Part shown: piece after piece, positions 7,225 to 35,806 of the stretch | How the letters are laid out: every line of letters starts with the position of its first letter | Position numbering within the stretch: the stretch's first letter is position 1 | NCBI GenBank assembly: GCA_937872895.1 | Contig: CALMUP010000023.1 | Coordinates: 1 to 64,000, forward strand | From: an uncultured Verrucomicrobiota bacterium | Lineage (GTDB): Bacteria; Verrucomicrobiota; Kiritimatiellia; CAIVKH01 | DNA: 64,000 bases | Reading direction: 5' to 3' | Program-made: the position numbers and the translations under genes | The notes under the pieces: model-generated | What the model was told of the DNA's origin: nothing | What the model saw: the letters and a program-made list of their open reading frames with translations, nothing else | Databases searched by the model: none

Positions 7225-9009
7225 ATGATGGGTAACGTGGCTGTTCCCTGTTTATCATGCTGGATCCGCACCGCGATCGCTGCGGGCGCCCTGGTCGTCC
7301 TGGCCGCCTGCGCGTCCATGCCGTGGAGTGGCGTTCGCTACAACGTGGACGTGGAAGGGTTGGACGACCGGAACCTGCGCCGCGATGTCCTGCGGCTGAG
7401 CGAAGCCTGGCAGAACCGCAACGATGCCACGATCGACACCGCGACGCTGGCCCGCCAGTTCCGTGCCGATGCATTCAACATGGAACGGTTTCTGCGCGCC
7501 CAGGGACTCAGCGCCGCCCAGGTGGCCGTGCATGCCATCACCAACCGCCGCCCCACCCTCGTCTTTACCGTCACCCACACCAACCGGTACCTCGTGCACG
7601 AGGTGGAGCTTCGTTTTTCCAACCCGCCTCCCGAGGCCTTTTCCGGCCCCACCAACAACCTCGTGGGCCAGCCGGTGAATTTCGCCGGCGTCGATGCACA
7701 CGCCCGCCAGGCGGTGCGCCTGCTGAGGCAGGTCGGCCATCCCGAGGCGCGGGTGCGCGACCGCACCGTTTTCATCGACCACGCGCGGACCAACGCCGAT
7801 GTCGTCATCGAGATCGACGTCGGTGAGGCCGCCGTCATGGGCAGCACCACCATCACCGGCCTGAATCGGGTCAAACCCGACTTCGTCGAACGGCGCATCC
7901 GCTGGAAACCCGGCGAGCCCTACAACCAGCAGCGGATCGACCAGTTTTCGCGCCGCCTGACCGAGTCCGGCCTGTTCAGCTTCGTCGATATCAGCGGCCA
8001 GCCGAACCCGGACCAGCCGGACGTCTATGACATGACCGTGCGCTTGCAGGAACGTCGCCGCCGGTCCATCAGCATCGGCCTCGGCTACCAGACCGATACC
8101 GGCCCGGAAACCACACTGGCCTGGCAGCACCGAAACCTGTTCGGCCGCGGCGAACAACTCGAGTTTGATGCAACCTACGGCGAGGACATCTGGAACGGTG
8201 CCCTGATCCTGACCATTCCCGAAGGGGCGGGTCCGGACCGTGACCTCGAGCTCGGCATCAAGATCGCCGACGAGGAGTCCGACGCCTACGACGTCCGGTT
8301 TGAACAGGTCCATGCTCGCATCCGGCAGCGCGCCGGCCGCGACTGGTTTTTCCTGTACGGTCCGTCGCTGCGCCGCTCCACGGTAACCCAACTGGGAACC
8401 GACGAGGACTACGTGCACCTCTCACTGCCGGTGACCGCTCTGCTGAACAAGCGCGATGACAAACTCGATCCCACGCGCGGGTATGGGTTGACCGCAACGG
8501 CGGAACCGTTTGTGGACCTCGACTCGTCCGACACGTTCGTCAAATCCCTGTTCACGCCGGCGGTGTACCTGCCGGTGATCGACCGCACACTCGGCCTCGG
8601 CCTGCGCCTGACCCTCGGCTCGATTGCCGGCAACAGCGTCAATGGAATCCCCGCCGACCAGCGGTTCTATGCCGGTGGCGGACAGTCGATCCGCGGCTAC
8701 GCCTACCAGTCGGTCGGCCCGCGCAAGGAAGGGAAGCCGGTGGGCGGCCGCTCGCTGGTCGAATCGTCGGTGGAACTGCGCTGGCGCTTCACCTCGCACC
8801 TGGGACTGGTCGCGTTCCTCGATGGCGGTTCGGCCTATGAACCGGAAATCAGCGACTTCAGCGAGTCGTACCAGTGGGGTGCCGGCCTGGGCCTGCGTAT
8901 CTTCACCGGGGTCGGACCCATCCGCCTCGACGTGGGCGTCCCGGTCAACCCGCGCGAGGACCTCGACAACGATTTCGAATTCTACATCTCGATCGGGCAG
9001 GCCTTCTGA
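7225..9009 (+). CDS. tamA: TamA-like Omp85 outer membrane protein with a lipobox (TamL type)
   Basis: Omp85/BamA-superfamily protein of 594 residues. A signal sequence ends in a lipobox (LVVLAAC), so the mature N-terminus is probably a lipidated cysteine. POTRA-like domains follow (residues about 35-240, including DVGEAAVMGSTTITGLNRVK and RWKPGEPYNQQRI). A C-terminal 16-strand beta-barrel domain follows, with YAGGGQSIRGYAYQ, the conserved RGY of Omp85 loop 6. It ends in Phe (ISIGQAF), the usual outer membrane barrel signature. The next gene, tamB, overlaps by one base, which identifies this as the TamA partner rather than BamA. A lipidated TamA (TamL) is known from Bacteroidetes. It inserts selected proteins into the outer membrane. 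The start could be the second ATG at 7228. Confidence 0.9.
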   Translation: MMGNVAVPCLSCWIRTAIAAGALVVLAACASMPWSGVRYNVDVEGLDDRNLRRDVLRLSEAWQNRNDATIDTATLARQFRADAFNMERFLRAQGLSAAQVAVHAITNRRPTLVFTVTHTNRYLVHEVELRFSNPPPEAFSGPTNNLVGQPVNFAGVDAHARQAVRLLRQVGHPEARVRDRTVFIDHARTNADVVIEIDVGEAAVMGSTTITGLNRVKPDFVERRIRWKPGEPYNQQRIDQFSRRLTESGLFSFVDISGQPNPDQPDVYDMTVRLQERRRRSISIGLGYQTDTGPETTLAWQHRNLFGRGEQLEFDATYGEDIWNGALILTIPEGAGPDRDLELGIKIADEESDAYDVRFEQVHARIRQRAGRDWFFLYGPSLRRSTVTQLGTDEDYVHLSLPVTALLNKRDDKLDPTRGYGLTATAEPFVDLDSSDTFVKSLFTPAVYLPVIDRTLGLGLRLTLGSIAGNSVNGIPADQRFYAGGGQSIRGYAYQSVGPRKEGKPVGGRSLVESSVELRWRFTSHLGLVAFLDGGSAYEPEISDFSESYQWGAGLGLRIFTGVGPIRLDVGVPVNPREDLDNDFEFYISIGQAF

Positions 9010-11876
9010 TGACGAAACGCACCGTCATCCGCCGCATCCTGCTGCTCCTGCCGGCCCTCGCGCTCGCCGCCCTCGCCGCAACCGCATGGCGCTTCGTGCG
9101 CCACGAACCGACCCGGCTGGCGCTCGCCCACCGCATCCTCGCCACCGATCCGTCCGGTGCGCCACCGCGCTTTTCCATCGATGGCCTGCGCTGGCCCTCG
9201 CTGCACCACATCGCCGCCGATCGCGTGCGGTTGCATCATCCCGACGGAACCTGGCTGGAGGCGCGCGGCATCTCCGCGCACCTCGCCCTCCGGCCGCTGC
9301 TCCGCCGCACCGTATCCATCAACGAACTTCACCTGCTCGACCTCACGCTGAACGATCTTCCCGCCTCCACCGAGCCGCAGGAAGATCGTCCACCGTCCCC
9401 GTGGCGCTACGTGCTGCCGGTGGTCCGGGCGGAACGCCTGCACACGGAGGCCAAGGCGACCGGAACCGAACTCGTCGCCTCCGGGATCGAGGCCGCAGTG
9501 GATGCATCCGGGTCGTACGGCCACCTGCGCCTGCTGGCCCGCGAACTGACCGCGTTCGACGAGACCGTCAGTGTCCGGGGCGACATCGCCTGGGCGGACC
9601 GCACGGTGTCCGTGACCAACCTCGCCCTGACCACCCGCGCCGGCATCATCACCGGATCCGTACACACCGCCGATGGTCGCACCGAGGTCGCCGCGTCCGG
9701 GGCGGCGCTCGACCTCGCACCGCTCGCCGAACGCTTCAGCGATCCCACCCGCGGACGCCTCGACGCCACCGTCCTCCTGACCATCACGCCGGACAACCTG
9801 CAGATTCGCTGGAACGCCACGGCCATGGACCTGGCACGCGGCGCGGTCCGGATCCCGGCCCTGCAGGGCACCGGCGACCTCCAGCGCACCAACACCACCT
9901 GGATCGTGCGCGACGGCCGCCTGGCGGCCGATTCGATCACCCTCGGTACGACGACGCTGCACGCCACCACCGCGTTCCTGCGCCACGCGGACAACCGCCT
10001 GCTCATCGACGCCACCACCGCCGCCCCCGAACCCCTCGCGTTCAACCTGTCCGCGCGCGCCGGGGTCTCCACCACCAGCAACACCACCACGATCACCCTT
10101 GAATACGCCACCGGACACGTGCACGGGGCTGATGCCGTGCTGACCCGGCCCGCCACCGTGCGGCTTGCCGGAAATCGCTGGTCGCTCGACACCCTGGCCC
10201 TGCAGTGGCGCGACGCCACCCTGACCACCAAGGCCGCCTGGAACGGCAAGTTGAACTGGTCCGGCCAGTTGAACGACCTCCCGACCGGGGATCTTCCGTT
10301 GAAGGGACTGCGCGGCACCGCCAGGGCCGCATGGGAGATCCGCGACTTCCCCACCCACGCCAACGGACAACTCACCCTTCACCTCGAGGATGTGGCCACC
10401 GGCATCGAACGCATCGATTCGTGGGTGTCCGGGGATTTCAAGGCAAGCGCGCGGATTCGCACCGACCGCATCCTCGTCGAGGCGCAAAGCCACGGCGCCA
10501 CCAACCTTTCGCTTCTCGTCCACGCCTCCATCCCGGGTCGCTGGAGCAGCGGATCGCCGTGGTTCAACCGCACGGGCGATGCCCGCGGCTCCGCCCTCAT
10601 CCACGCCGAACTGAAGCCGCTGCTCGAACCCTACCTCGCCGAATGGCAGCAGGTCAGCGGGCAACTCAAGGCCTCGATCGGCCTCTCCGGGAACCCCACC
10701 GCACCTGCCATCACCGGCAACCTGGTCATCGCCAACGGATTCGTCGAGGACGTGGTCCGCGGCACCTCGGTGCGCGACCTGTCCGCGACGGCGACCATCG
10801 CCTCGCGCGACCACATCCACTGGACGGCGACCGCACGCGATGATGCCCAGGGCCACGTCACCCTCGACGGCGCCGCCATCCGTAATGCCGACGGCGAACT
10901 GGTGCTCGGCGCGGAAGCGGTCATCTCGCAGTTCATCCTCGGCCGTATGCTCGGCAACGACCTTCCCATCAATGGGCAACTCACCCTCCACGGCACCGGC
11001 GACGTGGCCCGGCTCGACGGCCAACTCGCCGTCGCGCCCATCACCGTGCGGCTTCCGCGCCAACTGCCCCCGTCGATCCGCACCATGCGCGTGGTCGAGC
11101 GGGGCGTTGAAGCACCTTCCTCCACCACCCCGGAACGATCGCGCCGCGCCTTCCCGCTCCACATCATCACCGACATCAAGTTATCCACACCCGAGGCGAT
11201 CCGCGTCAACGGCCGCCAACTGCGCAGCGAATGGCGGGGTCGCGGATGGATCTCCGGCGAAATCCCCGACCTCCGCCTCGGCGGCAGCATCACCCTGCAA
11301 CGCGGCTCGTTCATGTTCCTCGGCCGCCGCTTCCAGGTCCTGCGCGGCGACATCATCATTCCCTCCGGAGCGCGCACCACCACCCCCACGGTGTTCATCA
11401 CCGCCGAAACCCGGGCCAGCGGCGCCACCATCACCCTGAACGTCACCGGCTCGGCCGACGATCCGCAACTGACCCTCTCCTCGACCCCGCCCCTCGAACG
11501 CAACGAGATCGTCGCGCGCCTGCTCTTCGGGAAATCCGGCGACGCCGTCTCGCCGTTCCAGATCGCCTTCCTCGCCCACGCCCTCGATGTGCTGGATGGC
11601 GGCGGCCCGCTCCTTCAGCAGATCGACCGCGGCGAACGCACGCTCGGCCTCGACCAGATCGACATCAAACAGAGCGAGGAGTCGTCGGGCCTGCAGGCCG
11701 TGATCTTCGGGAAACGACTGCATGACCGCTTGTACTTCGAAGGCGAAATCGGCCTCGAACGGGAACCGGACGTGTTCGCGGTCGAGGCCGAACTGACCCC
11801 GACCCTGATCCTGCGCACCGAAACCAGCCCGCGGATCCGCGAAGGCATCAGCATCCAGTGGCGGCGCGACTACTGA
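9009..11876 (+). CDS. tamB: Translocation and assembly module protein TamB
   Basis: Inner-membrane-anchored periplasm-spanning protein of 955 residues, shorter than E. coli TamB. The N-terminus has one membrane segment (residues about 7-30, ILLLLPALALAALAATAW). A long beta-rich AsmA/VPS13-like repeat region follows. The C-terminal TamB domain (formerly DUF490) includes LRLGGSITLQRGSFMFLGRR, FQVLRGDIIIPSG, LTLSSTPPLERNEIVARLLF and the closing YFEGEIGLEREPDVFAVEAE. The ATG shares one base with the tamA stop (TGATG), so the pair is translationally coupled. TamB works with TamA in outer membrane protein assembly and, as a bridge-like protein, in phospholipid transport. Confidence 0.9.
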   Translation: MTKRTVIRRILLLLPALALAALAATAWRFVRHEPTRLALAHRILATDPSGAPPRFSIDGLRWPSLHHIAADRVRLHHPDGTWLEARGISAHLALRPLLRRTVSINELHLLDLTLNDLPASTEPQEDRPPSPWRYVLPVVRAERLHTEAKATGTELVASGIEAAVDASGSYGHLRLLARELTAFDETVSVRGDIAWADRTVSVTNLALTTRAGIITGSVHTADGRTEVAASGAALDLAPLAERFSDPTRGRLDATVLLTITPDNLQIRWNATAMDLARGAVRIPALQGTGDLQRTNTTWIVRDGRLAADSITLGTTTLHATTAFLRHADNRLLIDATTAAPEPLAFNLSARAGVSTTSNTTTITLEYATGHVHGADAVLTRPATVRLAGNRWSLDTLALQWRDATLTTKAAWNGKLNWSGQLNDLPTGDLPLKGLRGTARAAWEIRDFPTHANGQLTLHLEDVATGIERIDSWVSGDFKASARIRTDRILVEAQSHGATNLSLLVHASIPGRWSSGSPWFNRTGDARGSALIHAELKPLLEPYLAEWQQVSGQLKASIGLSGNPTAPAITGNLVIANGFVEDVVRGTSVRDLSATATIASRDHIHWTATARDDAQGHVTLDGAAIRNADGELVLGAEAVISQFILGRMLGNDLPINGQLTLHGTGDVARLDGQLAVAPITVRLPRQLPPSIRTMRVVERGVEAPSSTTPERSRRAFPLHIITDIKLSTPEAIRVNGRQLRSEWRGRGWISGEIPDLRLGGSITLQRGSFMFLGRRFQVLRGDIIIPSGARTTTPTVFITAETRASGATITLNVTGSADDPQLTLSSTPPLERNEIVARLLFGKSGDAVSPFQIAFLAHALDVLDGGGPLLQQIDRGERTLGLDQIDIKQSEESSGLQAVIFGKRLHDRLYFEGEIGLEREPDVFAVEAELTPTLILRTETSPRIREGISIQWRRDY

Positions 11877-21931: not shown

Positions 21932-22105
21932 GGGAAGGATCATAACAAAGAAACCGCCCGGCGTCGCGCCTGTTGTTGAAAGGGAGGTGGCCCATCCAAC
22001 CGGACTTGCACATTTTGTAGGTGGACGGTTCGGTCCGCCATGCCTATACTTCGACTCCGGTAGCGTCGCTGCATGCCGGGCGAGGCGATTCCGCGGAAAC
22101 AAAGC

Positions 22106-24922
22106 ATGGTTGGCAAGAAACTCCAGTCCGGTTGGTGGCGGGTGCTCGGCGGCCTGGTGGTCGCGGCATGGACCGTCGTTGCTGTGGCCCCGGCGCTGGG
22201 GCAGGTCGAGGACGACAGTCCGGAGGGCCTGTACCGCAACGCCCTGCAGAACTTCACCGCCGGTCGCCATGCCCAGGCCATCCCGTTCTTCGTCCAGCTC
22301 ATCGACATCTTCGGGCGCGAACCCTCGCTGCAGGCCGAGATCGAGAACGCCTACTACGGGCTCGGTTGCTCGTACTACAACACCGGTGAATACCTCGAGT
22401 GCGTCAACACCTTCACCAAGATGATCGAATTGTTCCCGAAATCGCGCACCATCGACGAGGCGTGGTTCCGGATCGCCGCCGCCCACCAGTTTCAGGAGAA
22501 CTACGAGGAGGCGATCAAGGCCTACCAGCAGGTCACCGGCTCGTTCCCCAATTCCCCGTTTGCCGAGGATGCGGCCTTCCAGACCGCCATGGCGTTGATG
22601 GTCACCGAAAAATCCGCCGAGGCGGTGGCGGCCTTCGAGGCCTTCACCACGACCTTCCCCCGTTCCGACCTGGTGCCGCAAGCCATGGTCTTCATGGCCA
22701 GGTCATATTTCCAGGGCGGCGACTACCTCAAGGCGCTCGAAACGCTGGAGAAGGTGGGTGACCGCACCCGCTCGCTGGACCATCTGGTGTATGCAAACTT
22801 CCTCGCCATGGAGATCGGCGATGTCGCCTTCGAGGAGACCGAGTACCATACCGCACTGCGGGCCTTCCGCCGCGTGCGTACCAACCAGTCGCTGATCCGC
22901 TTCCAGCGGAAGCTGGTGGCCGAGGCCGAACGGATGCTCGAGGCTTCGCGCCGCACCACCGTGCCACCGTCCGAACTGGCCCGCCACTTCCGCAACGAGC
23001 GCCGCCTCATGGCCTCGCTGGCGACGCTGAAACAGGCGCTGGAGAAACTCGAATCCACGCCGGATTACGATGCCAGCCTGTTCCACCGCATCGGCCGCTG
23101 CTTCTACAGCATCGACCGCTACTGGGAAGCCTACACCGCCTACAAGCGCGTGGTCACCGAGGCGAAGGATCCGCTGCTGCAGGAGGCCTGCCATTTCGAC
23201 CTGATCCTCGTGCTCAACCGCCTGCGCCGGTTCGGTGAGCTCATCGAGGAGGCCGACCGCTACCTCGCCACCTACGGCAAGGACGAGAAACTGATCAAGG
23301 CCGAGCGTGTTCCGGCCGTCGCCTTCATGCGGGCCGAGGCGTACATCAACCAGGAATTGTTCGAGGATGCCGAGCGCGAGATGGCCCGCCTCGAGACCAC
23401 CTACCCCAAACACGTCCAGATGCCGCGCATCCGTTTCTACAAGGCGCTGGCCATCGCGATGCAGGAACGGTTCACCGAGAGCATCGACTTGTTCGAGCAG
23501 TGGCTCGAGACCTACCCCGACCACCTCATGGCCGCCGAAGTGGCCTACTGGCTGCCCATCTCGATGTACTATGACGGCCAGTACGAAGCGGCAATCCCGC
23601 TGTTCGACGCCTACGTCGACAACTACGCCATGACCGTGTACGCCCCGGAGGCGGCCTACCGCTCCGCCTTGTGCAAGTACTCGATGGAGGACTACGAACG
23701 CGCGGCCAGCGAACTCGAGGCGTGGCTGGAGGATTATCCCGACCACGTTTTCCAATGGGAGGCACGGGTTACGCTCGGCGACGCCTATTCCGCCATCGGC
23801 GAACTCGAAAAAGCCAAGGTCGCCTACCTCGGCGTGACCCCGGAAGGCGGACCGATGGAGTACCTCGCCATCAGCCAGCTCAACAAGGTGTTCAAGGCGC
23901 TCGACACCGAGCAGGACTACCGGCAGATGGCCGACGTGCACATCCGCTACCTGCAGAACAACCCGAACTCCCCGAACATGATCGAGTCGGCCTACAACGC
24001 CGGCTGGGCCCTGCGGCAGATCGGCAGGATCGACGAGGCCCGCAAGCTCTACTGGTCCACCATCGAGCGCTTCGGCAACAACCGTGCCTGGGACGGTTTC
24101 GGCCCGCTGCTCAAGGACTTGCGCTCGATGTACCGCGACGACATGGACCGACTGACCTCGGAGTTCGAACGCATGATCGTCAAGGCGCGCGGGGAAAACC
24201 GGCCGACCCTCGTCTCCCGGCTGGTCAAGGAAATGCTCCTGTGGCGGGACATGACCGACGTCGATCGCGCCGCCGAACTCGAGCGCCGCTTCAACCTCGA
24301 CGTACTCGACGCCGAGGCGCTCGCCTTCATCGGCAGCGCCCACGTGCGCGCCGGCGACCTCGCCCGCGGCCAACCCGTGCTCGACCTGCTGCTGAAGGAC
24401 TTCCCCAACTCGCAGTTCGCCGATGTCGCCTATGCCCGCAAGGCCGAGGTGCTGCTCGGCGAGGGCAAACCCGACGAAGCCATCGCCGCCGCGAACACCG
24501 CCATCGACAAGACCGCCGACACCGCACTGATGATGGAAGCGATCTTCACCAAGGGCCTCGCCCTCAAGGCGGCCGGCCGCCACACCGAGGCCATCGAGGA
24601 ATTCAACAACGTCCTGGCCAGTCGCGCCTCCCCGCGCCCGCTCAAGCCGCGGGCCATGCTCGAGGCCGCCGCCAGCTTCGAGGCCATGGGCGACTTCGCC
24701 AAGGCGATTCCCTACTACCAGCGCATTTACGTCATGTACGCCGCCTACCTCGACGAGATGGCCCAGGCCTACCTGCGCAGTGCGGCCGCATTCGAGAAAC
24801 TCAAGGACCGCACCGCCGCGATCAGCACCTACCACGAGATGCTGGTGATCGAATCGCTGGCCGGCCGGCCCGAACTCGACGAGGCGCGCCGGCAACTGGC
24901 CCGGCTGGAGGCGGGATCCTGA
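22106..24922 (+). CDS. Large exported tetratricopeptide repeat protein
   Basis: About 938 residues, with an N-terminal signal or anchor (VLGGLVVAAWTVVAVAPALG) and TPR or TPR-like helical repeats along nearly the whole length. Examples are GLYRNALQNFTAGRHAQAIP, GCSYYNTGEYLECVNTFTKM, IAAAHQFQENYEEAIKAYQQ and FTKGLALKAAGRHTEAIEEF. It is probably a periplasmic scaffold. It is the first gene of a tight plus-strand operon: the next TPR gene overlaps its stop, and ExbB, ExbD, ExbD and a VWA protein follow. That context suggests it binds the periplasmic side of an ExbBD energy-transducing complex. The start may instead be the ATG at 22073, eleven codons upstream. Confidence 0.85.
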   Translation: MVGKKLQSGWWRVLGGLVVAAWTVVAVAPALGQVEDDSPEGLYRNALQNFTAGRHAQAIPFFVQLIDIFGREPSLQAEIENAYYGLGCSYYNTGEYLECVNTFTKMIELFPKSRTIDEAWFRIAAAHQFQENYEEAIKAYQQVTGSFPNSPFAEDAAFQTAMALMVTEKSAEAVAAFEAFTTTFPRSDLVPQAMVFMARSYFQGGDYLKALETLEKVGDRTRSLDHLVYANFLAMEIGDVAFEETEYHTALRAFRRVRTNQSLIRFQRKLVAEAERMLEASRRTTVPPSELARHFRNERRLMASLATLKQALEKLESTPDYDASLFHRIGRCFYSIDRYWEAYTAYKRVVTEAKDPLLQEACHFDLILVLNRLRRFGELIEEADRYLATYGKDEKLIKAERVPAVAFMRAEAYINQELFEDAEREMARLETTYPKHVQMPRIRFYKALAIAMQERFTESIDLFEQWLETYPDHLMAAEVAYWLPISMYYDGQYEAAIPLFDAYVDNYAMTVYAPEAAYRSALCKYSMEDYERAASELEAWLEDYPDHVFQWEARVTLGDAYSAIGELEKAKVAYLGVTPEGGPMEYLAISQLNKVFKALDTEQDYRQMADVHIRYLQNNPNSPNMIESAYNAGWALRQIGRIDEARKLYWSTIERFGNNRAWDGFGPLLKDLRSMYRDDMDRLTSEFERMIVKARGENRPTLVSRLVKEMLLWRDMTDVDRAAELERRFNLDVLDAEALAFIGSAHVRAGDLARGQPVLDLLLKDFPNSQFADVAYARKAEVLLGEGKPDEAIAAANTAIDKTADTALMMEAIFTKGLALKAAGRHTEAIEEFNNVLASRASPRPLKPRAMLEAAASFEAMGDFAKAIPYYQRIYVMYAAYLDEMAQAYLRSAAAFEKLKDRTAAISTYHEMLVIESLAGRPELDEARRQLARLEAGS

Positions 24923-25812
24923 TGAAACGCGGACTCCTCATCGCCCTGCTGGGCTTCCTTGTCGCAGCCGACCACGCCGCGGCCCAGACCGCGCGCGAAC
25001 GCGGACTCGGTCCCTATACGCTGGTCACGCGCCGCGGCGAGGTGCCCGTGCGCCTGTTGCGCCGCGACGGCGACATGGTCTGGGTGGACCGCCTCGTCCA
25101 GTCCGGCCAGTTCATCGAGACCGGCGTGCCCCGCAGCGAGATCGTCGAGTTCAAGGCCCCGCCCCACCCGGCCTTTGCCGCGGCCGCGCAGGCCCAGACC
25201 CCGGAACAGATCGCCGCCGCGATCGACGGCCTGCGCCGCCTGGTCGGCCAGCTCCGCCCCTACCGAGACCTGCCCGGCATGCCGGTCAACGCCGCACTGA
25301 TCGAACAGGCCAAACTGAACGAACGCCGCGCCTACTGGCGCGACGCCCTGCTGATCTACCAGGAACTGCTCAACCTACCCTATGACTTCCCCGAACGGCC
25401 GATGATCCGCTACTGGTCCGGTATGAACCACTGGCGCATGGACCAGAAGGAGAAGGCCCTGGAATTCCTGCTCGATGACCCGGTACCCGACGAGGATCTC
25501 GACCTGATGTCCGACATCCTCTACATGCGCGCCGACAGCCTCGCCGCCGCAGGCCGCCCGCGCGAAGCGGTCGAGACCTACCTCGGCCTGATCGTCTTCT
25601 ACCCGTTTGTCCAGACCAACGAGCTGCGCGCGCTGGCCGGCGTGATTCCGAACTACATCGCCATGCAGGACTGGGATGCCACGGTGAAAAGCATCGAGGC
25701 GCTCAAGCGCGACTACCCGGATGCGCCGCAAACCGCGGCGGCCGTGGCCCGGCTCGAACAATATACGCAGGAAGTGGAACGCGAACGGCAATTTCAAGTG
25801 CGCGAGGAATAA
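24922..25812 (+). CDS. Exported TPR-like protein of the ExbBD-VWA operon
   Basis: Exported protein of 296 residues with a clear signal peptide (LLIALLGFLVAADHAAA). A small N-terminal beta region follows (GPYTLVTRRGEVPVRLLRRD; residues about 30-75), then helical TPR-like repeats (ERRAYWRDALLIYQELLNLP, MRADSLAAAGRPREAVETYL). Its ATG overlaps the stop of the large TPR gene (TGATG), so the two are coupled. It lies 15 bp before the ExbB gene. I recognise no named family. Together with the upstream TPR protein it probably forms the periplasmic adaptor part of the ExbBD-VWA system. Confidence 0.82.
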   Translation: MKRGLLIALLGFLVAADHAAAQTARERGLGPYTLVTRRGEVPVRLLRRDGDMVWVDRLVQSGQFIETGVPRSEIVEFKAPPHPAFAAAAQAQTPEQIAAAIDGLRRLVGQLRPYRDLPGMPVNAALIEQAKLNERRAYWRDALLIYQELLNLPYDFPERPMIRYWSGMNHWRMDQKEKALEFLLDDPVPDEDLDLMSDILYMRADSLAAAGRPREAVETYLGLIVFYPFVQTNELRALAGVIPNYIAMQDWDATVKSIEALKRDYPDAPQTAAAVARLEQYTQEVERERQFQVREE

Positions 25813-25827
25813 CGAAAAGGTGCGACG

Positions 25828-26583
25828 ATGAAGATAAAAACCCTGTTGATGATCGGATTGCTCGGACTCGGCGCGACCGCCGCGGTCCCGATGGTGGCAC
25901 GGGCCCAGGACGCGGTGGCCGAGGAGGCTGCACCGGCACCGAAAAAGAAAACGCTGCTCGATACCTACAAGATCGGTGGCTGGGCCATGCACCCGCTGCT
26001 GCTTTGCTCGATCGCGGTGGTCGGCGTGTCGATCCTGAACGCCCGCTCGATGAACCGCAAGACGCTGATCCCGGTCGACGTCGTGGCCTCGGTAAAGGCC
26101 GCGTCGGTGAACCAGGACTATGTGAAGGTTGCGGAACTGGCCGAGGCGTCGGACAGCCTGTTCGGAACCTCCCTGGCCAGCGGCATGCGCCTGTTCGACC
26201 CGAACGATCCGGACGGCAGCAAACCGAAGGTGGAGGAGGCCATCTCCGAAGCGATGGGCCGCCAGGAAGCCAAGCACGCCTTCTGGCTGAACTTCCTCCA
26301 GCTTATCACCGCGGTAGCCCCGATGCTCGGACTGCTCGGCACGGTCAGCGGCATGATCGGCGCCTTCGACAAGATCGGCATGGGCGGCATGGGCAAACCC
26401 GAACTGCTTGCCGCCAACATCGGCGAGGCCATGGTCACCACCGCCACCGGCCTGATTGTGGCCATCCCGGCGATGTTCGCCTACTTCCTGTTCCGCAACT
26501 ACCTGAACAAGCTGCTCTCCGAGGCGGAGGAAAACCTGACCGTGGTCGTGGACAACCTCACCGCCCCCCTCGCCGAAGAGTAG
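25828..26583 (+). CDS. exbB: MotA/TolQ/ExbB proton channel family protein
   Basis: Inner membrane protein of 251 residues. It has a cleavable signal-like N-terminus ending ARAQ, an Ala/Pro/Lys linker, a first membrane helix (residues about 53-68, AMHPLLLCSIAVVGVSI) and a cytoplasmic loop. The conserved core of two further helices contains APMLGLLGTVSGMIGAF and GEAMVTTATGLIVAIPAMFA. These include the TolQ/ExbB channel residues, with the Thr in the second and third helices. ExbB pentamers with ExbD form a proton-driven motor that powers a partner across the periplasm. A cleaved N-terminal extension occurs in several ExbB proteins. It is followed by two exbD genes. Confidence 0.93.
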   Translation: MKIKTLLMIGLLGLGATAAVPMVARAQDAVAEEAAPAPKKKTLLDTYKIGGWAMHPLLLCSIAVVGVSILNARSMNRKTLIPVDVVASVKAASVNQDYVKVAELAEASDSLFGTSLASGMRLFDPNDPDGSKPKVEEAISEAMGRQEAKHAFWLNFLQLITAVAPMLGLLGTVSGMIGAFDKIGMGGMGKPELLAANIGEAMVTTATGLIVAIPAMFAYFLFRNYLNKLLSEAEENLTVVVDNLTAPLAEE

Positions 26584-26610
26584 TCCCCGGCACGTCCTCG
26601 CGAACCCACC

Positions 26611-27069
26611 ATGAAGGCCAAACGCAAATCCGAGGTTGAACTCAGCGTCGACATGACGCCGATGATCGACATGGTCTTCCTGCTGCTCGTGTTCTTCATG
26701 ATCGCCGCGACCATGTCGAAGGTGGACATGACCCCGGAGATCAAGCTCCCGGTCGCCCCGAAGTCGCAGGTGCCCGAGGACCTCCGCAACCGCGGCACGA
26801 TCAACATCCTGCCCCTCGGCTCGGTGACCCCCGCCGGCGACGTGGTCTCGGCTGAACGCCCCTTCCTGCTCCATGGTCAATTGGTCAACGAGCAGGACCT
26901 GAAACAGCAGATCGACGCGGTCCGCAAGGGCACGCCCGAACTGCGCGTGTACATGCGCATCGACAAGAACGTCGAATTCGCCTCGGTGCAGCGGGCCATC
27001 AAGGCCTGCGCCGACGTCGGCGTCTTCGACATCGTGTTCGCCACCTACCAATCGGGGACCGGGGAATGA
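26611..27069 (+). CDS. exbD: ExbD/TolR family biopolymer transport protein 1
   Basis: Protein of 152 residues with the ExbD/TolR architecture: short cytoplasmic N-terminus, one membrane helix starting at DMTPMIDMVFLLLVFFMIAA, which carries the conserved proton-carrying Asp (residue 22), and a periplasmic domain (ELRVYMRIDKNVEFASVQRA). It forms the dimeric plug of the ExbB pentamer. The stop overlaps the next exbD by 4 bp. Having two adjacent, diverged exbD copies suggests a heterodimer. Confidence 0.93.
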   Translation: MKAKRKSEVELSVDMTPMIDMVFLLLVFFMIAATMSKVDMTPEIKLPVAPKSQVPEDLRNRGTINILPLGSVTPAGDVVSAERPFLLHGQLVNEQDLKQQIDAVRKGTPELRVYMRIDKNVEFASVQRAIKACADVGVFDIVFATYQSGTGE

Positions 27070-27506
27070 AGCTGCGTCGCGCCAACGAAGTCACCATGAA
27101 GATGGACATGACGCCGATGATCGACTGCGTCTTCCTGCTGCTTGTGTTCTTCATGGTCGGCAGCACGCTGCACAAGCAGGAAGCCGACATCAGCTTCTCG
27201 CTGCCCGGCACCGCCGACCAATCGGAACCGGTGCAGATCCCCGACGAGCAGATCATCGAGATCTACGCCGACGGCACCGTCGTGCTGAACGACCTGAAGT
27301 TCGATTCGCCGACCTCGTCCTCGCTGCCCGAGCTGATCGAGACCCTCAAGCGGTTCAAGGCCACCGCCGAGGCGAACAAGACCGAATCGATGATCACCAT
27401 CGCCCCCGCGCCCGAAGTGAAACACCAGCGTGTGGTCGATGTGCTGAACGCCTGCGCCGAGGCGAAGATCCAGAACGTCTCCTTCGCGATGGAGGGCGAC
27501 TCATGA
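27066..27506 (+). CDS. exbD: ExbD/TolR family biopolymer transport protein 2
   Basis: Protein of 146 residues with the same fold as its neighbour but clearly diverged. Its membrane helix begins MDMTPMIDCVFLLLVFFMVG with the conserved Asp, and the periplasmic domain contains SITIAP-like ESMITIAPAPEVKHQRVVDV. It overlaps the upstream exbD and the downstream VWA gene by 4 bp on each side (ATGA), so stoichiometric co-translation is likely. It probably pairs with the first ExbD. Confidence 0.93.
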   Translation: MKLRRANEVTMKMDMTPMIDCVFLLLVFFMVGSTLHKQEADISFSLPGTADQSEPVQIPDEQIIEIYADGTVVLNDLKFDSPTSSSLPELIETLKRFKATAEANKTESMITIAPAPEVKHQRVVDVLNACAEAKIQNVSFAMEGDS

Positions 27507-28552
27507 ACGATGCTCCCGTCCAACCGGCCGCCCCTCCTCCGCCGAAGCCCGTGCTGACCGAAAAGGAGAAGGCGAAGCGCCGCCTCGCCGAGGCCGCCAT
27601 CTCCGCGGTGATCTTCCACGTCGGCCTGGCCATCCTCGCCGGCGCCATCACCATCGCGGTGATCGTGGCCCGCCCGAAGGTCACCTTCGACGCGAAGCAG
27701 CCGCCCTCGATCCCCGCGCGCAAGCTCGAACACAGCATCCGCGTGAAGCAGATGAAGGAACAGGTGCGCAAGCCCCAGATCCTCCAGCGCCTCGTCTCCC
27801 AGGCCCCGAGCGCGGTGGCCCTGCCCGAGCTGCCCAAGATGGACACGCCGGACATGAAGAAGATGCGCGACACCCCGACGCTGAACCGCAGCGCGAACAT
27901 GCTCGGCGACCTCGGGCGTGCCGGCGGCGGCCTCGGCCGCGGCGACACCGGCGGCGGCGGCTTCTCGGACACGAAGTTCTTCGGCGAGAACGTCCGCACC
28001 CGCGCCATCGCCGTGCTCGTGGACGTCACCAGCTCGATGTACAACAAGGGCGTCGTCGAGGACGTGAAACGCGAGGCCCAGATCATGCTCGAAGGCCTCG
28101 GTCCCGGCACCAAGTTCAACCTGATCGGCTTCGTGGACGGCGCCGAAGCCGTGTCCCCGCAGATCATGTTCGCCACCCAGGAGAACAAGGCCGCCGCGAT
28201 CGCCTGGCTCGGCAAGATCAAGATGAACACCCAGGGCAACAAGAAGGGCTGGTCGGGCAGTACGCCCCACGACGCCATCATCATGGCGGTAGAAATGGGC
28301 GCCGACACGATCTTCCTGCTGACCGATGATGTACCGACCATCTCCGAGGTGCGCGGCAAGGAACGCATCCCGATGCCGAACCACGCCGATGACCTGGTCA
28401 GTTATGTCCGCAACATCGAGACGACCACCGGCCGCTCGGTGAAGATCCACCCGATCGTGTACAAGGCCTCCAGCTCGGCGGGCGAACGCTCAAAGGAATA
28501 CTGGCGTCGCATCGCCCGCCTGACCGGCGGCAAGATGCAGGTCATCGAGTAA
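27503..28552 (+). CDS. VWA-domain protein with TonB-like topology
   Basis: Protein of 349 residues. A Pro/Lys-rich cytoplasmic start (PVQPAAPPPPKPV) precedes a single membrane helix (about 33-56, AVIFHVGLAILAGAITIAVI). Then come a basic, Pro-containing stretch (about 65-125), a Gly-rich hinge (about 138-153) and a C-terminal von Willebrand A domain (about 165-349). The metal-ion-dependent adhesion site is intact: DVTSS (D174, T176, S178), SGST (T254) and LLTDD (D275). The first half has the layout of TonB/TolA, the normal partner of ExbBD. However, no TonB C-terminal domain is present; the VWA domain replaces it. It overlaps exbD by 4 bp. Inference: ExbBD drives this protein to bind or pull a periplasmic or outer membrane partner, perhaps the TPR proteins of the same operon. 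Confidence 0.85.
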   Translation: MNDAPVQPAAPPPPKPVLTEKEKAKRRLAEAAISAVIFHVGLAILAGAITIAVIVARPKVTFDAKQPPSIPARKLEHSIRVKQMKEQVRKPQILQRLVSQAPSAVALPELPKMDTPDMKKMRDTPTLNRSANMLGDLGRAGGGLGRGDTGGGGFSDTKFFGENVRTRAIAVLVDVTSSMYNKGVVEDVKREAQIMLEGLGPGTKFNLIGFVDGAEAVSPQIMFATQENKAAAIAWLGKIKMNTQGNKKGWSGSTPHDAIIMAVEMGADTIFLLTDDVPTISEVRGKERIPMPNHADDLVSYVRNIETTTGRSVKIHPIVYKASSSAGERSKEYWRRIARLTGGKMQVIE

Positions 28553-28555
28553 GTG

Positions 28556-31054
28556 ATGCCCCTGCCTCCGTGGACCGATGACCTGGTGGCGTCGTCGCTG
28601 CTCCGCCGCTTTTCCTCCGTGGTCGAACAGGTTGCCGACCTCCCCGCCGTGATCGACCCCCACGCGGCGATCACGTACCGAACCCTCGACGCCGAATCCC
28701 GCCGCCTCGCCGCGCACCTCGCCGCCCATGGCGCAGCGCACGGTTGCGGCGTGGCCTTGCTGCTGCCTGCGGGTTGCTCCTTCGCCATCTCGATCTGGGC
28801 CGTGCTGCGCACCGGTGCCTACTACATCCCGCTCGACGCCGCCTATCCGGCCGCCCGGCTGGCCGAAATCCTCGGGACCGGCATCGCCTCCCTGCTGGTG
28901 ACCGACGCCGCGCACGCCCCCCTCGCTGCCGACATCGCGGGTCGTTTGTCCCCGCCGCTGACCGTCCTGCTCGCGGAAACACCGCCCGCGGAACACCACG
29001 AACCACCGGCGGCAACACCGGCCCCCGACGATCCCGCCTGCGTGATCTTCACATCGGGATCGACCGATCAACCCAAGGGCGTGATGCAGTCCCACCGCAA
29101 CCTGCTCCATTCCACCCGCTGGTACACGGAACCGGCCGGCCTTCGCCCCGGATTGCGGATGACCCTGCTGCACTCGGTCAGCGCGATCGCCGCCGCCACC
29201 GCGTTCTACGGCGCACTGCTGAACGGCGCGACGCTGTACCCGGCCAACGTGACCTCCCTGGGCGTCGAGCGCCTGCCCGACTGGCTGGATGAACACCGCA
29301 TCGATGTGTTGCACCTCGTTCCCACGCTGCTGCGGCGCATCGACCGCGTGATGCCCCCCGGTCGCCGCCTGCGCACACCCTCGTTGCTGCGTACCGGCGG
29401 CGAAGCGGTCAGCCTGGCCGACTGGCATACCTGGCGGTCCCGGCTCCCCGCCGGGAGCCGCTTGCTGGTCTGTCTCGGATCAACCGAGGCCCTGAACTAC
29501 CGGCAGCGCATCCATACCTGGGACGAATCACCACCCGGCGACGCGTTGCCGGTGGGCGACCCGATGCCGGACAAGGAGGTCGCGGTCGTGGACGCCGAGG
29601 GGCAACCGGTCCGCGACCACGACGAGGTCGGCGAAATCGTCGTCGCCAGCCCGTACATCTTCGCCGGTTACTGGAAACATCCGGCGCTGACCGCGCAGGT
29701 CCTGCGCGACGATCCGGATCGCCCCGGATGGCGCATCTTTCGCACCGGTGACCTCGGGCGCTGGGGCGCGGACGGCGCACTCTTCCACGTCGGTCGCAAC
29801 GACCGGGTCATCAAGATCATGGGCCACCGCGTGCACCCCGGCGATATCGAAGCCGTCATCCGGACCATGCCCGGGGTCCGCGATGTTTCCGTTGTCGGCG
29901 AGGCGGATGCCGACGGGCCGCTCCGCCTGTGCGCGCACCTTGTGCCTTCGCCGGGGGAGCGTGTGTCCGCCGCCTCCGTGCGCCGGTGGATCAGCCGCCG
30001 GTTGCCTGCGCATATGGTGCCGTCGCTGGTGGAGTTCCGGGCCGATCTGCCCCGCCTCCCGGGCGGCAAGGTGGACCGGCGCAGCCTGCGTTCGCGTCGG
30101 ACCGCGGCGCGCCGCGTTCACATCCCGCCACGCCATCCATACGAGGAAACCCTGGCCGAACAGGTCAAGCGCCACCTGCATGTCGCGGACCTCGGCATGG
30201 CGGACGATCTTTTCGGCGACCTCGGTGCGGATTCGATGGCGGTGACCAGCCTGCTGATGGATATCCATGCCGTCTTCGGCGTGCAGGTTCCACTGGCGGT
30301 GGTGTACCGGGAAACCACGGTGGCCGCACTCGCCGGTTGGCTGCGGGGCAACCGGATCGCGCCGGCCGGCGGTGCGCTGGTGATTCACGCGGCGGGCGAA
30401 CGCCCGCCACTCTTTGCGGTGTGCGGCCTGTTCGGCCATGCCCTGCGCCTGTTGCTGGTCGGCCGCGAACTGCCGGCGGCGCAACCGATGATCGGACTTG
30501 AACCGCCGGGCATGGATTGGACCCGTGTCGGGGCATCGACCATCGAGGACATGGCGGATTGGTACGCCGGGGAGATCATGCGGCGGCGACCCGACGGTGT
30601 GGTGCGCCTGTTCGGCACGAGTTTTGGCGGGATCATCGTGCACGCCGTGGCCTGCCGGCTGCAACGCGCCGGACGCACCGTGGACCTGCTGGCCATGGTG
30701 GACACCAATCCGCCGGATCTGCTTACCGACACCGGACTTGATCGCAGGCCGCCGCGCGACTTCGCGGAGGGCATGACGTCGGACGATCCGATGGTCCAGG
30801 CCGGCATCCGGGTCGCTCGCCAGCACGGCGCCGCACTCGCGCGCCATGTATCCACGGAGCGTTTCGCGGGCGTGATCACCTACTTCCGGTGCGACGAGGT
30901 CGAGGATCCCTCCGCGCGCGACCGGCGCGACCTCTGGCATTTCGCCGCCACGAAAGGACTGGATGTCATCCCGGTGCCCGGCCACCACGGCCACTTCCAC
31001 ATCGAGCCGCAACGGTCAGCCGTCGTGCGCGGCCTCTGCGAACGCTTGTGCTGA
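28556..31054 (+). CDS. Free-standing A-T-TE NRPS-like enzyme
   Basis: Cytoplasmic enzyme of 832 residues with three domains and no condensation domain. The adenylation domain (1-520) has A3 VIFTSGSTDQPKGVMQSH (163-180), A5 LGSTEALNYR, A7 RIFRTGDLGRW, A8 GRNDRVIKIMGHRVHPGDIE and A10 LPGGKVDRR with Lys505. The thiolation domain (about 525-600) has the phosphopantetheine Ser in LGADSM (S560). The thioesterase (about 615-832) has GTSFGG (Ser689), Asp716 and His813 as a likely triad. Aligned by eye, the A4 position normally holding the Asp that binds an alpha-amino group is Ile (SAIAAATAFYGALLNGA), so the substrate may be an alpha-keto, hydroxy or aryl acid. A-T-TE enzymes of this layout dimerise aryl pyruvates (atromentin, RalA type). 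The ATG follows the VWA stop by 3 bp. Confidence 0.88.
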   Translation: MPLPPWTDDLVASSLLRRFSSVVEQVADLPAVIDPHAAITYRTLDAESRRLAAHLAAHGAAHGCGVALLLPAGCSFAISIWAVLRTGAYYIPLDAAYPAARLAEILGTGIASLLVTDAAHAPLAADIAGRLSPPLTVLLAETPPAEHHEPPAATPAPDDPACVIFTSGSTDQPKGVMQSHRNLLHSTRWYTEPAGLRPGLRMTLLHSVSAIAAATAFYGALLNGATLYPANVTSLGVERLPDWLDEHRIDVLHLVPTLLRRIDRVMPPGRRLRTPSLLRTGGEAVSLADWHTWRSRLPAGSRLLVCLGSTEALNYRQRIHTWDESPPGDALPVGDPMPDKEVAVVDAEGQPVRDHDEVGEIVVASPYIFAGYWKHPALTAQVLRDDPDRPGWRIFRTGDLGRWGADGALFHVGRNDRVIKIMGHRVHPGDIEAVIRTMPGVRDVSVVGEADADGPLRLCAHLVPSPGERVSAASVRRWISRRLPAHMVPSLVEFRADLPRLPGGKVDRRSLRSRRTAARRVHIPPRHPYEETLAEQVKRHLHVADLGMADDLFGDLGADSMAVTSLLMDIHAVFGVQVPLAVVYRETTVAALAGWLRGNRIAPAGGALVIHAAGERPPLFAVCGLFGHALRLLLVGRELPAAQPMIGLEPPGMDWTRVGASTIEDMADWYAGEIMRRRPDGVVRLFGTSFGGIIVHAVACRLQRAGRTVDLLAMVDTNPPDLLTDTGLDRRPPRDFAEGMTSDDPMVQAGIRVARQHGAALARHVSTERFAGVITYFRCDEVEDPSARDRRDLWHFAATKGLDVIPVPGHHGHFHIEPQRSAVVRGLCERLC

Positions 31055-32746: not shown

Positions 32747-35700
32747 ATGAAAGGATGGATCTACCTGTTCGGATGCGTGCTGGCCGCGGCGTTGTCCGCG
32801 CACGGGCAGTCGTCCCGTCCGGGCTGGGGCGCGACCCCGTACGCCGGCACGGGCGGCACCGGCGTGACCTTCCGCACCTGGGCCCCGAACGCGAGCAGCG
32901 TCCACGTGGCCGGCGCCTTCAACGGCTGGAGCATGACCTCGCTGCCGCTGACCTCCGAAGGCAACGGCGTCTGGTCGCGCGATGTGACCGCCGCCTCGCC
33001 CGGCCAGCCCTACAAGTTCGTCCTGAACGGCAGCCTGTGGCGGCGCGATCCCTACAGCCGGCAACTCGAGGGATCCGGCACCCGCAATTCGCTGATCCAC
33101 CAGCCCGCCGCGTTCAACTGGGGCACCAACACGTTCGCCATGGCCCCGGCCCACGAACTGGTCATCTACGAAATGCACATCGGCGCCTTCCACGACCCGG
33201 TCCCCGGCGACGGCCTGCCCGGCCGGTTCACCAACGCGATCCAGAAACTCGACCACCTCGTGGATCTCGGCATCAACGCCGTCGAACTGATGCCGATCAG
33301 CGAGTTCCCCACCTCGACCAGTTGGGGCTACAACCTCTCCTACCCCTTCGCCATCGAATCCACCTACGGCACGCCCGACCAGTTCAAGGCCTTCGTGAAG
33401 GCCTGCCACGAACGCGGGATCGCCGTGCTGATGGATGTCGTGCACAACCACTGGGGCAGCGACAACGACGACTGGAGCCTGTGGCAGTACGACGGCTGGA
33501 GCACCAACGGCAACGGCGGCATCTTCTTCTTCAACGAGCCCGCCTACTGCTGCACCTGGTGGGGCCCCCGCCCCGATTACCGCCGCCCGGAAGTGCGCGC
33601 CTACATCCTCGACAACTTCCGCATGTGGAAACAGGACTACCGCATCGACGGATTCCGCTGGGACGCCCCCCAGTTCATGCTCTACAACGACAACACCCGC
33701 ACCGTGGTCATCCCCGACGCCTCCAACCTGATCCACACCGTCATCAGCACCCTGTCGAACGAATTCGAGCGCACCTTCCACATCGCCGAGGACATCAAGG
33801 GTGTCATCGGCTTCAACAGCCACTGGGACATGTCGTACCAGGGCACGATGCAGGGCATCATGAGCACCGGCAACGACAACGACCGCAACATGAGCACGCT
33901 CGCCGGCGCGATCAACAGCGACCCGCAACGCATCATCTACAGCGAATCGCACGACTCCACCGGCGACCTGAACAGTTGGGCCATCCGTTTCCCCAACGCG
34001 GTGGACGCCACCGCGCCCGAAGGCTATTACGCCCGCAAACGCTCGACCCTCGCCGCGCTGTTCACCCTGACCGCCCCCGGCACACCGATGCTGTGGATGG
34101 GCCAGGAGATGCTGGAGACGAACCTGTTCAGCGACGCCCGCGCCCTCGACTGGTCGCGCACCAACACCTTCGCCCATGTGACCCGCCTGTACCGCGACCT
34201 GATCCACCTGCGCCGCAACCTCGATGGGGTGTCCGGCGGCCTCGCCGGCCCCGGCACCGGCCTGGTGTTCCTCGACCAGGCGCTGAAGACCATCGGCTAC
34301 CGCCGCTACGATCCGGCCACGCCCGACCAGGATGTCCTCGTCATCGCCAACCTCCGCAACACCCCGCGCCTCGGCTACACGATCCCGATGCCCGAGGCCG
34401 GCACCTGGTACATCCACGTCAACACCGACCTGCAAAAGTACGGCGAGGACTACGAGGATGTCGGCGATACCCCCTCGATCACCGCGTCCGGCAACCCGCC
34501 CACCGCCATGATCAACCTCGGCCGCTACAGCGCCCTCGTGTTGTCGCGCCTGCCGATGAACGGCCTCGCCGTGGATTCGCTCGCCGTGGACGACACGACG
34601 CTGGGCAACGGCAACGGGCGCATCGATCCCGGCGAGTCGATCCTGATCACCCCGACCCTGCGCAACCGCGGCCAATTCGCCTACGCCCCGGTCGCGGTCA
34701 CCCTCGCCGCGCCGGATCCGACCATCGCGATCAACCAGCCCTTCGCCTCCGTGCCGATGCTCGCCGCAGACACCAGCGCCGCGACCGATGTCGCACTGAT
34801 GCTGACCGTCCCGACCAACTGGACCTGCGGCACCCCGCTGGAGATCGATCTCGCCCTCGAAGCCGGCGATGTCGCGCTGAACCAGCGCCGCACCCTCGCC
34901 GTCGGCGCGGTTGCCGCTGGCGATGTCGTCACCAACACCATCGCCAGCGCGGACGTGCCCCAGCCGATCATCGACAACCAGAGCGTCTTCTCCGACCTCG
35001 TCGTCACCAACACCCAGATCGGCGACCTCACCGCCATCCGCCCATGGATCCGCCTCAACCACACCTGGAACAGCGACCTCGTCATCGCGCTCCAGCACCC
35101 CGACGGCACCGAGGTTGTCCTCGCCAACCGGCGTGGCGGCAGCCGCGACAACTTCGGTTCAGGCACCTGCGGCGTAAACGTCGTTTACACCGTGTTCGAT
35201 ATGACCGCGACCACCAACATCGGCGCCAACACCCAGAACGCTCCGTTTGCCGGGCGCTACGTGCCCGACGGCGACCTCGCCGCCTTCGCGGGCAAACCGG
35301 CAGCCGGCACCTGGCGGCTGCGCGTCACCGACCTGTTCACCACCGACCAGGGCACCCTGCTGTGCTGGGGCCTCGACCTCGAAGCCAACGCGGAAACCGC
35401 CGAGTGCACCACCTTCACCGGCGTGGTGCTTGATGCCGACGGCGACGGAATCCCCGACTGGTGGGAGGCCTCCTACAGCGGAAGCGCCACCGGCCTGATC
35501 GCCACCGCCGATGACGACGGTGACGGGTTCTCCAACCTCGATGAATTCAAGGCCGCGACCCATCCCGGCGATCCAGCCTCCTTCCTGCGCGCCGACACGG
35601 TGCCGATCCACGACGCCGGCCAACCCTTCACCCTGCGCTGGAACAGCGCCGCCGACCGCACCTACCGCCTCTGGTTCCGCGAAACCCTCGGCGACGGCGC

Positions 35701-35806
35701 CTTCACCCCCGTCGCCTCCAACATCCCCGCCGCCCCGCCGGTCAACACCTGGACCGACCCCGACGCCACCAACGCCCACGGCTTCTACCGCATCGAAGTC
35801 GAATAA
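32747..35806 (+). CDS. Secreted GH13 alpha-amylase/branching-type enzyme with P-domain
   Basis: Exported enzyme of 1019 residues with signal peptide WIYLFGCVLAAALSAHG. Domains in order: a CBM48-like N-terminal module (about 25-115, VTFRTWAPNASSVHVAGAFN), then a GH13 barrel with DVVHNH (230-235), GFRWDA (nucleophile D306), HIAED (acid E348) and SESHD (D403). The GlgB-like YEMHIGAF places it near branching enzymes and maltooligosyl hydrolases. A CARDB-like beta domain follows (about 605-720), then a proprotein convertase P-domain (about 735-880, RPWIRLNHTWNSDLVIALQH), a calcium-type segment (DADGDGIPDWWE, DDDGDGFSNLDEF) and a C-terminal beta domain. It acts on alpha-1,4/1,6-glucans outside the cell and is a plausible cargo of the type II system encoded next to it. 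The GH13-P-domain fusion is unusual. Confidence 0.9.
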   Translation: MKGWIYLFGCVLAAALSAHGQSSRPGWGATPYAGTGGTGVTFRTWAPNASSVHVAGAFNGWSMTSLPLTSEGNGVWSRDVTAASPGQPYKFVLNGSLWRRDPYSRQLEGSGTRNSLIHQPAAFNWGTNTFAMAPAHELVIYEMHIGAFHDPVPGDGLPGRFTNAIQKLDHLVDLGINAVELMPISEFPTSTSWGYNLSYPFAIESTYGTPDQFKAFVKACHERGIAVLMDVVHNHWGSDNDDWSLWQYDGWSTNGNGGIFFFNEPAYCCTWWGPRPDYRRPEVRAYILDNFRMWKQDYRIDGFRWDAPQFMLYNDNTRTVVIPDASNLIHTVISTLSNEFERTFHIAEDIKGVIGFNSHWDMSYQGTMQGIMSTGNDNDRNMSTLAGAINSDPQRIIYSESHDSTGDLNSWAIRFPNAVDATAPEGYYARKRSTLAALFTLTAPGTPMLWMGQEMLETNLFSDARALDWSRTNTFAHVTRLYRDLIHLRRNLDGVSGGLAGPGTGLVFLDQALKTIGYRRYDPATPDQDVLVIANLRNTPRLGYTIPMPEAGTWYIHVNTDLQKYGEDYEDVGDTPSITASGNPPTAMINLGRYSALVLSRLPMNGLAVDSLAVDDTTLGNGNGRIDPGESILITPTLRNRGQFAYAPVAVTLAAPDPTIAINQPFASVPMLAADTSAATDVALMLTVPTNWTCGTPLEIDLALEAGDVALNQRRTLAVGAVAAGDVVTNTIASADVPQPIIDNQSVFSDLVVTNTQIGDLTAIRPWIRLNHTWNSDLVIALQHPDGTEVVLANRRGGSRDNFGSGTCGVNVVYTVFDMTATTNIGANTQNAPFAGRYVPDGDLAAFAGKPAAGTWRLRVTDLFTTDQGTLLCWGLDLEANAETAECTTFTGVVLDADGDGIPDWWEASYSGSATGLIATADDDGDGFSNLDEFKAATHPGDPASFLRADTVPIHDAGQPFTLRWNSAADRTYRLWFRETLGDGAFTPVASNIPAAPPVNTWTDPDATNAHGFYRIEVE

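Follow-up and report, generated by a model that had tools for sequence, protein, structure and literature searches.

A probable Ton/Tol-type envelope machine with a von Willebrand A head in an uncultured Kiritimatiellia bacterium, and other heads on a shared chassis

Background

The Ton and Tol systems are the textbook routes of energy to the outer membrane, and a six-gene operon of an uncultured Verrucomicrobiota bacterium (class Kiritimatiellia) raises the question of what else such a motor may drive. The operon occupies positions 22106–28552 of the window, i.e., the whole stretch of 64,000 nucleotides analysed here (contig CALMUP010000023.1, assembly GCA_937872895.1), and encodes two tetratricopeptide repeat (TPR) proteins, an ExbB, two different ExbDs and, where TonB or TolA would be expected, a protein ending in a von Willebrand A (VWA) domain. 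An earlier note, made from the sequence alone, had suggested that the VWA domain grips its target, perhaps the co-encoded TPR scaffolds, and knew of no described function for this combination. Our analysis points to a trans-envelope machine of the Ton/Tol type, in which the motor probably drives a periplasmic VWA head and the TPR pair serves as a general accessory.

The combination as such was published in 2025, and it is for the function that the remark of the earlier note stands. Williams-Jones et al. 2025 (PMC12204202), the one relevant paper among those retrieved for VWA proteins with ExbD, describe a vWA force transducer family in Planctomycetes-Verrucomicrobia-Chlamydiae (PVC) bacteria, the ‘Tichowtungia vWA transducer family’, which has the same gene neighbours and is assigned no function there. 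Its members are characterised by an N-terminal transmembrane helix (TMH) with SHLS-type residues, the His above all, a disordered linker of ~100 residues containing a beta-strand motor box, and a C-terminal vWA domain; the gene stands downstream of a TPR gene, a tolQ-like gene and two different tolR-like genes. Complex models placed the helix at the TonB/TolA motor site, and AlphaFold 3 (AF3) models of relatives led this independent group to the transducer reading. The window protein shares the SHLS-type helix, the C-terminal vWA domain and the position behind TPR, tolQ-like and two tolR-like genes and, on these sequence traits, is a new member of the family; it differs from the published description by the two TPR genes of its operon and by an Ala at the first SHLS position.

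The VWA protein and its motor

The VWA protein (27503–28552, 349 aa; all features of the operon lie on the + strand) combines a TonB-like chassis with a VWA head, as judged from its sequence, conservation, an AlphaFold2 (AF2) model and Foldseek searches. The transmembrane helix at residues ~30–56 (27590–27670), EAAISAVIFHVGLAILAGAITIAVIVA, contains no Asp and carries a putative SHLS-type motor-docking face made up of H39, A46 and T50. In Ton/Tol transducers, the membrane helix reads S-X3-H-X6-L-X3-S, the Ser and the His touching ExbB/TolQ (PMC12215075). The three window residues, spaced by 7 and 4, are invariant in 22/22 VWA orthologues, and an S/T-x3-H pattern likewise occurs in the helices of most proteins of a second VWA type (type 2), of most toroid-headed proteins (see below) and of the group's true TonB. 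At the level of sequence, the VWA protein bears the TonB/TolA motor-docking signature at the TonB/TolA spacing, in line with the TonB/TolA position that the earlier note had given it, and Pfam returned no TonB_C match in the protein.

The linker that follows (residues 57–152, 27671–27958) has densely invariant columns around RKLEHSIRVKQM..Q.RKPQ..QRL, becomes rich in Gly towards its end and was modelled mostly at low predicted local distance difference test (pLDDT) values; a D-box-like strand within it is plausible from the sequence. Linkers homologous to it occur in VWA type 2 and in some toroid-headed relatives. The Pfam match of the C-terminal part to VWA_3 (6e-5) falls under the curated cut-off, and the VWA assignment was therefore checked by structure. 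In the AF2 model, built from 21 orthologues, the head reaches pLDDT values of 86–97 per 10-residue block at residues ~160–349, and a Foldseek search of this head against the PDB placed VWA-containing proteins on top (ITIH4 E = 3e-11, CLCA1, BatB E = 6e-7); as modelled, the VWA domain (residues 153–349, 27959–28549) is real. Its metal site (D174-x-T176-x-S178, T254, D275) had been noted as intact, and the five positions are indeed retained in 23/23 orthologues when S/T swaps are allowed at 176, 178 and 254.

The VWA head is very probably periplasmic with the N-terminus of the protein inside, as can be read from the domain content of relatives: a protein kinase (L085, 1e-38) or a SAM domain (L087, 2e-18), both cytoplasmic modules, stands N-terminal to the same single helix. 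A cytoplasmic VWA domain was rejected on the same grounds, and the cytoplasmic placement that would have refuted the earlier note did not arise.

The motor is complete, as the earlier note had it. The ExbB/TolQ-family subunit (25828–26583, 251 aa, MotA_ExbB 2.3e-28) has a signal-like N-terminal extension and scores higher with the TolQ than with the ExbB model; its T172, T205 and P214 are invariant in 12 orthologues and align to conserved pore and TM3 residues of TolQ/ExbB. ExbDa (26611–27069, 152 aa, ExbD 9.2e-24) and the second, different ExbDb (27066–27506, 146 aa, ExbD 7e-23) both retain the Asp of the MTPMID motif at all loci listed, and each has its own separate orthologue in 19 loci. 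The genome carries six ExbB genes of the operon's kind and a more distant one, and the only TonB_C protein of the assembly lies on another contig (C5) in a receptor-ExbB-ExbD-TonB arrangement. A true TonB partnering window-type ExbBDs elsewhere was looked for and not seen: orthologous ExbBs and ExbDs adjoin VWA genes and the lone TonB_C protein has an ExbBD set of its own, which agrees with the view that the VWA gene is conserved together with its motor genes.

Conservation of the operon

Close orthologues of the VWA protein (52–66% identity) were found in seven other genomes among 58 relatives, in all of which ExbB, ExbD and VWA genes are clustered with TPR genes upstream and the outer flanks differ. 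A scan of genome contigs yielded 22 loci from metagenome-assembled genomes (MAGs) labelled Kiritimatiellae, Verrucomicrobia, Lentisphaerae and similar, some of which are apparently the same contigs as those of the seven relatives. The order TPR1-TPR2-ExbB-ExbDa-ExbDb-VWA is complete in 14/22 of these loci, and six are interrupted by contig ends. Two rumen MAGs (L067, L070) have ExbB-ExbD-ExbD-VWA without TPR genes, LigA or HisC standing upstream in their place. Since six genes hold one order in 14 loci at ~48–66% VWA identity, and since the genes that flank them vary among the relatives read, a chance arrangement can be excluded. All six reading frames lie on the + strand, and the gene content described in the earlier note is confirmed; its ‘overlapping stops and starts’ apply to TPR1/TPR2, ExbDa/ExbDb and ExbDb/VWA but not to the remaining two of the five junctions, where TPR2 and ExbB are separated by 15 bp and ExbB and ExbDa by 27 bp.

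Within the phylum, the orthologous group of the window VWA protein (type 1) occurs in 12/289 genomes, all of one class (514–652 bits), the next best match outside the group reaching 125 bits; the wider VWA family is present in 80 of the 289 genomes. Type 1 was not found in the close relatives G002, G003 and G006.

The TPR proteins

TPR1 (22106–24922, 938 aa) is a large exported TPR-array protein (Pfam TPR_6 1.9e-40; NCBIfam tol_pal_ybgF 3e-54) with syntenic orthologues, which are sometimes divided into two open reading frames; an alternative in-frame ATG lies at 22073. TPR2 (24922–25812, 296 aa) starts with a signal peptide, which is followed by a small beta domain of five strands (residues 29–78) and by TPR helices; its AF2 model (mean pLDDT 89) found BamD-type and TPR proteins as fold matches in the PDB. 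The Pfam evidence is strong for TPR1, ExbB and both ExbDs; TPR2 and the VWA protein remain below threshold and rest on the structure models. The N-terminal domain of TPR2 is related (hhalign 95%) to the second TPR protein of an operon whose transducer has a toroid head, and related TPR pairs stand alongside toroid-headed transducers at L039, L089 and L091–L093.

Other heads on related chassis

The genome of the window itself encodes two further operons of this kind. TPR-ExbB-ExbD-ExbD precedes a type 2 VWA gene on contig C13, while on contig C8 TPR1-TPR2-ExbB-ExbD-ExbD stands with a transducer bearing an alpha/alpha-toroid head (SQHop_cyclase_C 3e-6; nearest PDB sequence a squalene-hopene cyclase). 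The toroid operon (L039:3490-10346, identical to G000:C8:91489-98345) has an S-x3-H helix in its transducer, and in several genomes a MutL-like gene comes next. Toroid proteins of this kind are present in 52/58 genomes of the class. In at least 34 genomes, an ExbB lies a few kb or less from the toroid gene on one contig, and no description of such operons was found in the literature searched (preprints aside).

The C8-type toroid protein aligns with the window VWA protein in the membrane helix alone (hhalign 78%), and homology of the two linkers is not claimed. The shared chassis is instead argued from three proteins of genomes G036 and G024 (L083:5555-7084 and 7316-8833; L084:619-2133), which have a toroid head on a VWA-type helix and linker that match the window's group at hhalign 99.2% and VWA type 2 at 100%. 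Genome G013 has two tandem genes (at L087) with near-identical helix and linker, one with a VWA end and the other with a PA14-containing head. As homologous helix-linker parts carry VWA, toroid or PA14 heads, it appears that the working end can be swapped on a conserved motor side, and an ExbB tree agrees. In that tree, the ExbB phylogeny follows the head type: VWA-partnered ExbBs form one branch (support 97/94; the divergent L087 row falls outside) and toroid-partnered ExbBs another (100/99), with the ExbB of TonB outside both on a long branch.

Several relatives are extended further. At L085:6842-9307 (− strand), a Ser/Thr protein kinase is fused N-terminally to helix, linker and VWA domain, upstream of a TPR-TPR-ExbB-ExbD-ExbD operon. 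The three tandem genes at L087:6229-10323, two of which are the VWA/PA14 pair with near-identical helix and linker, each have an N-terminal SAM domain, and the third has a DUF5077-like end. A zf-HC2 anti-sigma-like domain precedes the membrane helix of a toroid-headed protein at L095:5442-7295 (− strand). Neither toroid and PA14 heads nor cytoplasmic kinase and SAM modules were found mentioned in the passages of PMC12204202 covered here. On balance we lean towards reading these systems as versions of one modular class, in which a proton-driven machine of the envelope can be fitted with different heads; it would comprise a TonB-like chassis, an ExbB with two ExbDs, a TPR pair, a periplasmic VWA, toroid or PA14 head and, in some members, a cytoplasmic kinase, SAM or zinc-finger domain.

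Proposed mechanism and alternatives

By analogy with Ton/Tol, from which docking, proton coupling and force are taken over here, ExbB and the two ExbDs would form a proton-driven inner-membrane motor, on which the single helix of the VWA protein would dock through the face formed by H39, A46 and T50. The periplasmic ExbD domains may handle the linker, and the motor would thereby move or tension the periplasmic VWA head, whose metal ion could hold the ligand, probably either a glycan or an acidic residue on some protein of the envelope. The two TPR proteins would be a general periplasmic accessory and not a target specific to VWA. We consider such a machine probable, with several observations weighing against it. 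A serine stands at −4 from the His, where the SHLS motif begins, in every scored orthologue except the window protein (Ala35, with Ser34 one residue before), and VWA orthologues have A/T in place of L/S at the last two positions of the motif. The conserved RKLEHSIRVKQM stretch of the linker was modelled in the AF2 monomer as a low-confidence helix (residues 72–100, pLDDT ~50–57), not as a TonB D-box strand. Few proteins, four from three genomes, combine a toroid or PA14 head with the shared linker, and PMC12204202 likewise reports no phenotype for any family member.

Whether the co-encoded TPR pair is the specific target of the VWA head, so that the motor would pull a periplasmic TPR scaffold, has to be weighed against its role as an accessory. 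VWA and TPR proteins co-occur in Bat operons, the TPR genes lead the operon in most loci, and a TPR gene is also among the neighbours described in PMC12204202. This idea, raised in the earlier note, is nevertheless weakened and in our view unlikely: related TPR pairs serve two head types, as they also stand with toroid-headed transducers, and the VWA operons at L067 and L070 have LigA or HisC instead of adjacent TPR genes, which suggests that the pair is a general accessory of such motors. A substitute for Tol-Pal, providing energised outer-membrane tethering and constriction at division, would suit the discovery of the published family in a species without recognisable TolA or TonB (PMC12204202), as well as the score of TPR1 with the CpoB/YbgF model and the fact that the genome's one TonB_C protein is bound to a receptor operon. 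The YbgF match of TPR1, however, is mostly generic TPR similarity, the type 1 VWA family is patchy (12/289 phylum genomes, with close relatives lacking a detected copy), OmpA-domain proteins exist but are unlinked to it, and the toroid protein with its 52/58 class genomes would be the better candidate for such a role, which makes this substitution quite improbable for the VWA system.

Slightly less probable still is a drive for surface motility or adhesion, with the VWA domain acting like the gliding adhesin CglB, as suggested in PMC12204202. The metal site is retained in all orthologues. VWA domains are often adhesive, too, but here some ~100 residues of linker hold the domain to the inner membrane, so that a partner in the outer membrane would be required, and no motility genes were recognised beside the operon in the loci read. 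The VWA protein might also be no force transducer at all, gating or sensing the ExbBD complex or being a passive subunit of it: energy transfer is argued by analogy, and the cytoplasmic kinase or SAM domains of some relatives fit signalling. Against this stand the invariant SHLS-type face and the intact motor residues, and we give it as little credence as the Tol-Pal substitution, preferring the motor-driven periplasmic VWA head.

Comparison with known systems and neighbouring genes

The proposed machine resembles TonB-ExbB-ExbD in its motor, the single N-terminal helix with a His at SHLS spacing and the basic, Pro-containing linker; in contrast to it, the operon has no TonB_C domain or receptor and includes two different ExbDs and a TPR pair. 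With Tol-Pal (TolQ-TolR-TolA-TolB-Pal-CpoB) it shares the operon logic of motor, transducer and TPR protein, but its six genes include neither TolB nor Pal, and the C-terminal domain of TolA is missing as well. The similarity to Bat (aerotolerance) proteins lies in the BatB-like VWA fold and in the combination of VWA with TPR proteins, and we know of no ExbB/ExbD motor in Bat operons. The second family of PMC12204202, the TPH-vWA/tolQ pairs, likewise sets a VWA protein beside a TolQ-like motor, has no ExbD and carries the proton Asp in its own helix. An SHLS-less motor of this TPH-vWA kind was rejected for the window, which has two ExbDs and no Asp in the VWA helix.

Right after the VWA stop codon, a protein with AMP-ligase, carrier and thioesterase parts is encoded, followed by a MatE transporter (28553–31054); these genes were rejected as members of the system, not being at the corresponding place in the relatives read. 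Elsewhere, the window holds adjoining Omp85/POTRA (TamA-like) and TamB genes (7225–11876) and an alpha-amylase family protein with CBM48 and a proprotein-convertase P-domain, an unusual combination (32747–35806).

Conclusions

To the published family, the analysis adds the apparent swapping of heads between proteins with a common chassis, which is the most interesting addition, the evidence for a periplasmic VWA domain, the grouping of ExbBs by head type and the TPR pairs that accompany toroid systems. The same motor and docking residues with heads other than TonB would mean that bacteria have built further proton-driven envelope tools. As head swaps separate the motor side (helix and linker) from the working end, they would make force transduction directly testable, with the toroid version, near-universal in Kiritimatiellia, as the first candidate for study.

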